Part shown: piece by piece, positions 320 through 3,090 of the stretch
Position numbering within the stretch: position 1 is the stretch's first letter
How the letters are laid out: every line of letters starts with the position of its first letter
NCBI RefSeq assembly: GCF_005576615.1
Contig: NZ_CP040330.1
Coordinates: 1-64,000 of the forward strand
DNA length: 64,000 nucleotides
DNA from: Natrinema versiforme
Lineage (GTDB): Archaea > Halobacteriota > Halobacteria > Halobacteriales > Natrialbaceae
Direction of reading: 5' to 3'
Translations under genes and position numbers: made by a program
The notes under the pieces: generated by a model
What the model was told of the DNA's origin: nothing
The model's input: the letters and a program-made list of their open reading frames with translations, nothing else
The model's database searches: none

Positions 320-475
320 ACGGTTCTAGTAACCCTGACGCTGGTCTAGTAACACATGGAACAATGAGAACCGATTCTAGCAGGAACTAGCAACAACAAA
401 AACAACTCTAGTAGAATTATTTGGTCTGCTAGTTCTGCGGATACTGTTTCTAGCCTATCCAAATAAAGCTTCCCG
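320..475. other. A+T-rich origin core with helically phased CTAG repeats
   Basis: This is the A+T-rich part of the origin and the likely duplex-unwinding element. CTAG starts at 326, 346, 377, 387, 408, 429 and 450, giving steps of 20, 31, 10, 21, 21 and 21 bases, each close to a whole number of helical turns. Most copies extend to CTAGYA. CTAG is sparse in the rest of the window, so seven copies in 128 bases is unusual. The unwinding role is inferred from composition and position between inverted ORBs. The role of the phased motif is unknown. Confidence 0.65.
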
Positions 476-515
476 TCCTAAATGCCCGTCCTCCCCCTCC
501 CCCGCCCTTTGGCTC

Positions 516-1272: not shown

Positions 1273-3090
1273 ATGTCAGACGATAACTCAGAGATCACTG
1301 GCTCAGACGAGGTCGAGGTCGACGGAACGAGCGGGTTCTCGTCGAATTTCGAGAACGCGGATCTCGGCGACGAAGAGTCGAATCAGGGGTTATTCGACGA
1401 CCTTCTCAGCGGAGAACCGATCTTCGAGAACAAGGAGGTTCTCCGCCCGTCCTATACGCCACACGAACTCCCCCATCGGAGCGACCAGATCAACAAGATG
1501 GCGACGATTCTCGTCGCCGCGCTTCGGGGCGAAACGCCGTCGAACATCCTCATCTACGGGAAGACGGGGACCGGCAAGACCGCCAGTGCGAAGTTCGTCA
1601 GCAAGGAACTCGAGAGCACCTCCCAGAAGTACAGCGTCCCGTGTGACGTCGAGTACATCAACTGCGAGGTCACCGATACCCAGTACCGCGTGCTCGCACA
1701 GCTCGCGAACAAGTTCATCGAGAAGAACAAAGAGCGTATCGACGATCGAGTCGCGGACCTCGAGTCGCTGTTCGAGGCCCTCGAGGAGTACGACGCCGAT
1801 GCGGAACGCCGGCGTGCTGACACGGCCGACTCGACCGATCGAACTGACGAGGGAACGGCATCGGACCCCTTCGATTTCGTCTCGAGCGAGGAGACGCGAA
1901 CAGAGACCGAGAAGACGGTGTCGGAGACCGACATTTCGACTGGAGACAATATAAGCGACATCGACGCGACGTCGAGCGATCTTCCACTCGAAGCAGGGGG
2001 GTCTTCGGACGAGCCATCACAGCCGCCCGATACATCGCCCGCGGAGAACCCCGTGCCGACGGATACCGACGCTTCCGATCGCGACGAGGCGATGACCGAT
2101 TCGGCCGCGCTCCCGCCGGATCACCCACTCGAGTCGACGCCGTTCGGGAGCCGATCCGAGGTCGAAGACCGGATCGACGAACTCGAGGCCGACAAGGACT
2201 CCTTCGAGGAGGTCCCGATGACCGGCTGGCCGACCGATCGGGTCTACAGCGTCTTCTTCGACGCCGTCGACTACGACGAGCGGGTCGTCGTCATCATGTT
2301 AGACGAGATCGACAAACTCGTCGAGAAAAGCGGTGACGACACGCTCTATAACCTCTCGCGGATGAACTCCGAACTGGAGAACTCGCGGGTGTCGATCATC
2401 GGCATCTCGAACGATCTGAAGTTCACCGACTTCCTCGATCCGCGGGTCAAGTCCTCGCTGGGCGAGGAAGAGATCGTCTTCCCGCCCTACGACGCGAATC
2501 AGCTGCGGGATATCCTCAAACACCGATCGGAGGTCGCGTTCAAGGGCAACGCACTCTCCGACGACGTGATCCCGCTGTGTGCGGCCTTCGCCGCGCAGGA
2601 ACACGGCGACGCGCGACGCGCGCTGGATCTGCTTCGGACCGCGGGCGAACTGGCCGAGCGATCGCAGGCCGAAACGATCATCGAGGAACACGTCCGGCAG
2701 GCCCAGGACAAGATCGAACTCGACCGCGTCGTCGAGGTCGTCCGCACCCTGCCCACCCAGAGCAAGCTCGTCCTCTTCGCGATCATCCTCCTCGAGAAAA
2801 ACGGCGTCCACAGCATCAACACGGGCGAGGTGTTCAACATCTACAAGCGCCTCTGCGAGGAGATCGACGCGGACGTCCTGACCCAGCGGCGCGTGACGGA
2901 TCTGATCAGCGAACTCGACATGCTCGGGATCGTCAACGCCGTCGTCGTCTCGAAGGGGCGGTACGGCCGGACTAAGGAAATCAGTCTCTCCGTTCCACTC
3001 GAAGAGACGGAGGCTGTCTTACTGAGCGACTCCCGACTGAGCGATATCGACGACATCCAGCCGTTCGTTCAGGCGCGGTTCGAGAACTGA
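1273..3090 (+). CDS. orc1: Orc1/Cdc6 replication initiator
   Basis: This is an AAA+ origin-binding initiator that recognises ORB boxes and helps load MCM helicase. Walker A (GKTGTGKTA) lies near residue 97, Walker B (VVIMLDEIDKL) near 341 and a sensor-1 region (IGISND) near 376, followed by a C-terminal winged helix. At 605 residues it is well above the usual 400 or so, because residues of about 174-304 form an acidic, Ser/Thr/Asp-rich linker inside the AAA+ domain. That linker DNA contains an ORB-like site at 1980-2003. The ATG follows the ORB at 1239-1261, and the origin lies upstream. Identification is firm. Confidence 0.96.
   Translation: MSDDNSEITGSDEVEVDGTSGFSSNFENADLGDEESNQGLFDDLLSGEPIFENKEVLRPSYTPHELPHRSDQINKMATILVAALRGETPSNILIYGKTGTGKTASAKFVSKELESTSQKYSVPCDVEYINCEVTDTQYRVLAQLANKFIEKNKERIDDRVADLESLFEALEEYDADAERRRADTADSTDRTDEGTASDPFDFVSSEETRTETEKTVSETDISTGDNISDIDATSSDLPLEAGGSSDEPSQPPDTSPAENPVPTDTDASDRDEAMTDSAALPPDHPLESTPFGSRSEVEDRIDELEADKDSFEEVPMTGWPTDRVYSVFFDAVDYDERVVVIMLDEIDKLVEKSGDDTLYNLSRMNSELENSRVSIIGISNDLKFTDFLDPRVKSSLGEEEIVFPPYDANQLRDILKHRSEVAFKGNALSDDVIPLCAAFAAQEHGDARRALDLLRTAGELAERSQAETIIEEHVRQAQDKIELDRVVEVVRTLPTQSKLVLFAIILLEKNGVHSINTGEVFNIYKRLCEEIDADVLTQRRVTDLISELDMLGIVNAVVVSKGRYGRTKEISLSVPLEETEAVLLSDSRLSDIDDIQPFVQARFEN
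1980..2003 (+). promoter_or_regulatory. ORB-like element inside orc1
   Basis: Within the linker-coding part of orc1 the DNA reads CTTCCACTCGAAGCAGGGGG followed by GTC. This matches the ORB core and G-string with one change in GAAAC. It encodes part of the low-complexity acidic insert, where codon choice is little constrained. Whether it binds Orc1 is untested. Confidence 0.55.

Follow-up and report, generated by a model that had tools for sequence, protein, structure and literature searches.

The core of the replication origin oriC1 of Natrinema versiforme contains seven CTAG tetranucleotides on one face of the DNA helix, and in Natrialbaceae this array is a ruler with fixed spacing on one helix face. 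The helical theme holds deeper, between the left ORB and a core element found across the class, and it seems that the origin is organised along a single face of the helix. CTAG is the target of an orphan methylase that is nearly universal in haloarchaea, and we give an even chance to the reading in which an origin assembled on one helical face carries the sites as a methylation-target array, the methylation state of which would time re-firing.

The CTAG array and its setting in oriC1

The window, i.e., the whole stretch of DNA analysed (64,000 bp), begins at the start of the 3,747,116-bp main chromosome of the 4,674,473-bp genome. It opens with an origin of the archaeal ORB type, having inverted ORBs with G-strings, an AT-rich core between them, and orc1 alongside. 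The left ORB, inverted, was located by a position weight matrix scan at 177–200 on the minus strand, and the right one at 517–543 on the plus strand, each with its G-string; the ORB calls delimit the core at 201–516. The matrices for the ORBs and for the core element described below were built in this analysis. The initiator gene orc1/cdc6, coding for Orc1-1 of 605 aa, lies at 1273–3090 on the plus strand, and relatives of its product are encoded in 193 of the 194 genomes of the class. Orc1-1 of Natrialbaceae carries a long acidic low-complexity insertion (1740–2220 in the window), and the relatives from other families align mainly from about residue 243–290 onward. More ORB-like sequences (TTCCACTCGAA...GGGGG) are found at 1230–1252, just upstream of orc1, and at 1982–2003, within its coding sequence; these are possible autoregulation or titration sites. 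To the left of the window (C2:3744000-3747116), oriC1 is flanked by a divergent operon that resembles the oap genes and encodes a small GTPase, another small protein, and a zinc-ribbon protein; OapA has been named a vesicle-forming small GTPase (PMC10927574). An element at 490–507 on the minus strand was compared, by sequence, with oriC1 of Haloarcula hispanica and its G-rich inverted repeat enhancer (PMC3936714). Like the elements described here, this enhancer is a cis element inside the ORBs and belongs to the same origin family, but it is G-rich, adjoins the ORBs, and is unrelated to CTAG or to the core element.

The CTAGs of the core start at 326, 346, 377, 387, 408, 429, and 450, in steps of 20, 31, 10, 21, 21, and 21 bp, and an outlying copy is located at 149, outside the core. 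All these positions had been given exactly by a first-pass annotation of the sequence, which was also right in stating that the array fills the core between the inverted ORBs and that most copies read CTAGYA (five of the seven, the exceptions being CTAGTT at 429 and CTAGCC at 450). Its remark that CTAG is otherwise sparse in the window is borne out by a count of 33 versus 93.7 expected from dinucleotide shuffles, or 61 by a second-order Markov estimate. The core holds its seven copies against 1.37 in shuffled sequences, and at least seven were found in 0 of 5000 shuffles. All seven fit within 128 bp, while the densest 156-bp stretch of the window outside the array has three, and 19 other AT-rich segments of 156 bp (GC ≤ 0.46) hold nine in total, at most two each. 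The pair CTAG-N17-CTAG occurs six times in the whole genome (4.67 Mb), three of them in the array; gapped patterns were used to count CTAG clusters genome-wide. The helical phasing proposed by the annotation is strong, with a mean resultant length R of 0.98 at 10.35 bp and a scan-corrected p of 0.0002, i.e., the proportion of random placements that do equally well when every period between 6 and 16 bp is allowed; the value is post hoc, as the phasing was noticed before any test.

Conserved spacing in Natrialbaceae and across the class

Apart from that of the window, the oriC1 regions of 133 genomes, drawn from a sample of 194 across the class, were compared together with public contigs; families and genera are denoted by anonymous codes (f3, f4, f7, g1, etc.), f1 being taken as Natrialbaceae and g22 as Halorubrum on the basis of matching public contigs. 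The steps of the array are kept exactly in N. thermotolerans and in a second N. versiforme. Counted from the core element, the slots of the ancestral Natrialbaceae array are −89, −58, −48, −27/−26, −6, and +43. In the window the first five are occupied, all on the plus strand, by site 2 (346–349; slot −89, filled in 34 of 37 genomes), site 3 (377–380; −58, 36 of 37), site 4 (387–390; −48, 35 of 37), site 5 (408–411; −27/−26, 37 of 37), and site 6 (429–432; −6, 34 of 37), which abuts the core element. Sites 1 (326–329) and 7 (450–453), also on the plus strand, have a narrower distribution, the former being present in Natrinema and rare in the rest of the family and the latter only in some Natrinema.

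The 31-bp spacing is invariant in 33 of 33 Natrialbaceae genomes, with a spacer identity between genera of 0.44, and the 10-bp spacing of sites 3 and 4 in all 34 genomes having both (spacer identity 0.42). Overall, the array spacers of the family show 42–48% identity and their lengths are exact or nearly so; the site midway through the 42-bp interval (−27/−26) shifts by one base, and one genus has a 10-bp deletion between slots, equal to one helical turn. In the alignment, CTAG is intact at the well-aligned slots in 73–88% of genera, versus 10% on average for the array's other tetramers, two further CTAG sites being out of register by one base. Moreover, no palindromic tetramer is more enriched than CTAG in the cores of Natrialbaceae (245 versus 75 expected, 3.3-fold). 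Since slots and spacings were kept while the spacers diverged, the array reflects selection on CTAG and on distance, and not homologous drift. The first-pass annotation had regarded its idea as lost if homologous origins showed no conserved CTAG spacing or if comparable AT-rich gaps were equally rich in phased CTAG; the idea withstands both comparisons, because sites and spacing are conserved in Natrialbaceae, and the AT-rich segments counted above are poor in CTAG.

Six Natrialbaceae genomes (L257-L262: G005, G043, G045, G046, G071, G175) have kept orc1 and the right ORB, and beside orc1 the core element and the CTAG array are gone, with the left ORB either absent or over 7 kb away. These genomes, in which an intact oriC1 core was not found beside orc1, still carry the methylase gene; their oriC1 seems to have been broken or rearranged as a unit, the methylase remaining.

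The core element, nTRCGGATAYTGTT-N14-ATAAA, is present in 112 of 128 cores of the core alignment, from 40 genera. Its 33-bp copy in the window, CTGCGGATACTGTT-N14-ATAAA, lies at 435–467 on the plus strand (435–448 plus 463–467) and has 0 mismatches to the consensus pattern. Outside Natrialbaceae, 16 genera have a CTAG at +43 to +45 of the element versus 0.38 expected by shifting, and inside the family the same holds for 12 of 14 genera; N. versiforme has lost this copy, the class-wide position (478–481, plus strand) reading CTAA. The CTAG of slot −6 is likewise present in some genera of other families. The four left slots, tried as a feature common to other families, were rejected (8 observed versus 8.7 expected by shifting). 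A paralogous origin of the same genome (L239, C3:8302) contains the element with a CTAG directly before it and another at +44, and 10 of 30 further pattern matches, some of which are oriC1, have a CTAG at +42 to +46 (0.73 expected). In the cores of Halorubrum (g22) the place of slot −6 reads TCGAGGGTACTGTT in nearly all cases, a lineage-wide replacement adjoining the core element. On the minus strand (window 453–475) the element might also be read as a putative leftward promoter directed into the core, with ATAAA as a TATA-like TTTAT (GGGAAGCTTTATTTGG) and the CGGATACTGTT part at initiation distance from this candidate box. A possible analogue, the nearest one published, is the UBP-bound ucm element of Sulfolobus origins (PMC12141716): both are conserved, lie in the unwinding region between inverted ORBs, and occur in more than one origin per genome. 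UBP itself is reportedly restricted to Sulfolobales and Desulfurococcales (PMC12141716).

Across 40 genera, the left ORB and the core element are separated by whole turns of the helix. The distances cluster near 81–83, 90–93, 100–103, 110–113, 120–125, and 131–134 bp, then at 143–147 and 153–155 bp, and onward to 254–256 bp. The 69 distinct genus-distance pairs give an R of 0.71 near 10.2 bp, the maximum in 5000 jittered sets being 0.40; with one value per genus (n = 40) it is 0.72 (null 99th percentile 0.43), and when short and long distances are treated separately, 10.4 bp is the best of the periods listed for each (R 0.84 and 0.77, respectively). The element matrix had been trained on the same genomes as this first quantisation test, and therefore the held-out test matters: 21 of 26 held-out origins fall within 2 bp of the predicted phase versus 10.2 expected, a result equalled by 0 of 50,000 random sets, the 26 being those left after setting aside 8 of 34 held-out cores without a recognised core element. 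As the genomes are related, pooled-genome p-values overstate independence, and genus-level counts are given where possible. Within genera (g1, g2, g4, g14, g22, g29, g42, g49) the distances differ by about 1, 2, or 4 turns. The right half of the origin is near constant, at 79–86 bp in most families and 91–96 bp in f3 and f7. The ORB-to-ORB distance was rejected as the quantised quantity, its signal (R 0.36, held-out p 0.28) being much weaker than that of the left ORB and the core element. Because the latter distances are quantised in whole turns, it seems that the left ORB, however far away, must point to the same side of the helix as the core element. A mutational bias to 10-bp insertions and deletions is possible in principle; alone it would not align unrelated families. 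In a review, ORB spacing is said to vary among genera, with nothing further on spacing (PMC5333045), and nothing relevant came up in a literature search on helically spaced ORBs in haloarchaea.

The CTAG methylase and CTAG clusters outside the array

The genome encodes an N4/N6 methylase of 353 aa (PF01555; C2:1996347-1997405), considered an orphan, as no restriction enzyme was recognised on reading the ORFs in the surrounding 12 kb. Its specificity for CTAG is based on the published assignment in the strain and on inference; in N. versiforme BOL5-4, m4C was found on 97.0% of CTAG sites genome-wide (PMC6696651). The 12 kb around the gene (L240, C2:1991000-2003000) contain zero CTAG, about five being expected from the window average. 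Homologues of the methylase are present in 171 of the 194 class genomes and are lacking mainly in Halorubrum and a few relatives, which matches the published distribution of the orphan CTAG methylase (cHG U), patchy in Halorubrum (PMC6471742).

The presence of the methylase and the content of CTAG in the core do not follow each other closely. In f4, methylase-positive cores hold 54 CTAGs versus 29.5 expected (1.8-fold) and methylase-negative ones 10 versus 13.6 (0.7-fold), the genus-level test of CTAG against methylase presence being weak (p 0.026), and CTAG is absent from the core in Halorubrum genomes that do have the methylase. GATC as a substitute for CTAG in methylase-less Halorubrum was rejected (17 versus 14.6 expected in cores). 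In Haloferax volcanii, raised CTAG density was reported at oriC2 only, and deletion of the methylase together with other RM genes caused no growth defect (PMC5867850); in another haloarchaeon low-GC DNA was found to be under-methylated (PMC11001535).

Clusters of CTAG occur in other families too (the Haloarcula-like g25, g33, g36, and g63, and others), most of them unphased; in the cores of f3, CTAG is among the most enriched palindromic tetramers (89 versus 30 expected, 2.9-fold), and f7 has the 10-bp CTAG pair in common with the Natrialbaceae array. Phasing as a class-wide rule for CTAG was rejected, as on a common anchor the phase is uniform (p 0.29), and the faint signal obtained by pooling nine genera (p about 0.01) vanished. 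N. versiforme itself has six other dense CTAG clusters, two of them (L238, C2:2123139-2123166, and L239, C3:8265-8301) about 500–600 bp upstream of other orc/cdc6 genes, unphased and with steps of, e.g., 55, 10, 7, and 7 bp and 47, 24, and 9 bp. Within Natrialbaceae, the CTAG sites gained after the family's ancestor take any phase (20 positions, p 0.27), so that a phase restriction on newly gained sites was rejected as well. Since other families, other origins, and later sites are unphased, clustering is general and phasing is special to oriC1 of Natrialbaceae.

The first-pass annotation knew of no named element like the array; as regards the clustering, this was mistaken. In 2016 Blow et al. 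described clusters of CTAG upstream of orc1/cdc6 in haloarchaea, in association with an orphan CTAG methylase, and proposed a role for them in replication (PMC4752239, Fig. 6D; the motif is printed as CATG in the running text and as CTAG in the figure legend). The CTAG cluster as such is therefore already known, and the present array, a non-coding cluster upstream of orc1/cdc6 in a genome with the orphan methylase gene, is a member of that set, with the same motif, place, class, and methylase family. The description by Blow et al. deals with density and co-occurrence, and in the portion consulted there is no mention of fixed spacing, of helical phase, of conserved slots, or of the +43 site and core element (PMC4752239). 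New here are the ruler spacing, the lack of phase in later sites and in clusters of other families, the core element with its CTAG, and the whole-turn rule for the left ORB.

Possible role of the array and alternative readings

If the seven CTAGs are targets of the orphan methylase in the unwinding core of oriC1, departure of the forks would leave all of them hemimethylated together. Until remethylation, the altered face of the core might weaken or strengthen the binding of a factor, candidates being Orc1, the MCM loader, a nucleoid protein, or a reader of hemimethylated CTAG, and the altered binding could set the timing of the next firing. Owing to the phasing, a single protein assembly could contact many sites at once from one face; in other families clustering alone seems to be enough. 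This methylation-target reading, to which we assigned an even chance, is favoured by the enrichment of CTAG, the conservation of slots and spacings, the methylase gene, the m4C mapped in the strain, the clusters at other orc/cdc6 genes, and the whole-turn distances of the left ORB. Against it stand the loose tracking of methylase and array, seen in methylase-positive Halorubrum and in the six Natrialbaceae genomes mentioned above, a flank preference of Natrialbaceae (tCTAGYAA) exceeding the need of a CTAG methylase, the normal growth of Haloferax volcanii after deletion of the methylase with other RM genes, and the under-methylation of low-GC DNA elsewhere. To our knowledge there is no known reader protein for hemimethylated CTAG, which also counts against a methylation timer.

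A close parallel is Dam/SeqA at oriC of Escherichia coli, where the site of an orphan methylase is likewise clustered inside the origin. The two differ in the mark (GATC and m6A in E. coli, CTAG and m4C here) and in phasing, the GATCs of E. coli oriC being unphased (PMC5145175), and no SeqA-like reader is known in archaea. In vitro SeqA needs pairs of GATC separated by two to three 10.4-bp turns, although E. coli oriC itself departs from this rule (PMC5145175); most neighbours in the CTAG array do lie an integral two or three turns apart, one step being a single turn. The resemblance would thus be one of logic, not of membership. A bolder version, in which oriC1 is helically indexed (left ORB and core element on the same side, 8–25 turns apart) and a row of m4CTAG is read by a hemimethylation sensor that blocks or licenses Orc1/MCM, as an independently evolved archaeal counterpart of Dam/SeqA, is speculative and, taken whole, rather unlikely.

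A possible, if doubtful, alternative to the methylation-target reading is a phased binding array, in which an initiator or a nucleoid protein would read tCTAGYAA directly, methylation being incidental. It would explain the extended T-CTAG-Y-A-A consensus, found mostly in one orientation in Natrialbaceae, as well as the strong phase, the fixed spacing, and the helical theme in common with the ORB spacing. However, the extension is weak or missing in other families, where only CTAG is enriched, the later-gained sites disregard the phase, and CTAG is scarce in lineages devoid of the methylase.

Intrinsic unwinding or bending, suggested by the first-pass annotation, gives a poor account of the data and is quite unlikely; under this reading, TpA steps in phase would facilitate melting or bend the core. 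The array does lie in an AT-rich core (42% GC) and belongs to the least stable 1.2–1.4% of the window's stretches of 100–150 bp; nevertheless, it is not the minimum, and CTAG is not the weakest tetramer, being more stable than TTAA, TATA, and ATAT, all three missing from the array. TTAA is even depleted in the cores of the family (13 versus 47 expected), and Halorubrum cores are equally AT-rich without CTAG. The comparison with DnaA-trios made in this context does not hold either. DnaA-trios are tandem trinucleotides adjoining a DnaA box, and the likeness is limited to a short repeated motif containing TAG in an unwinding region, as the CTAG sites are palindromic, 10–31 bp apart, and free of tandem trinucleotides, 126 bp separate the left ORB from the first of them, and Orc1 is the initiator. 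Shared ancestry, chance, or a mere lack of the genome-wide suppression of CTAG, with no function at all, is very improbable, for even though the observation was post hoc and the phasing represents one ancestral arrangement in one family, shuffled sequences never reach seven CTAGs, the slots outlasted the divergence of their spacers, and the +43 site recurs outside the family far beyond expectation.

Two open questions are touched by these results, namely how archaea avoid immediate re-firing of an origin and what purpose is served by the near-universal haloarchaeal CTAG methylase (PMC6471742). The whole-turn rule for the left ORB and the core element, not found in the literature searched, is a geometric constraint on Orc1/MCM assembly, and the 33-bp core element offers a new named target for mutation. 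With methylase targets set at fixed spacing in the origin of a strain already known to be methylated, the questions of re-firing and of the role of the methylase become directly testable.
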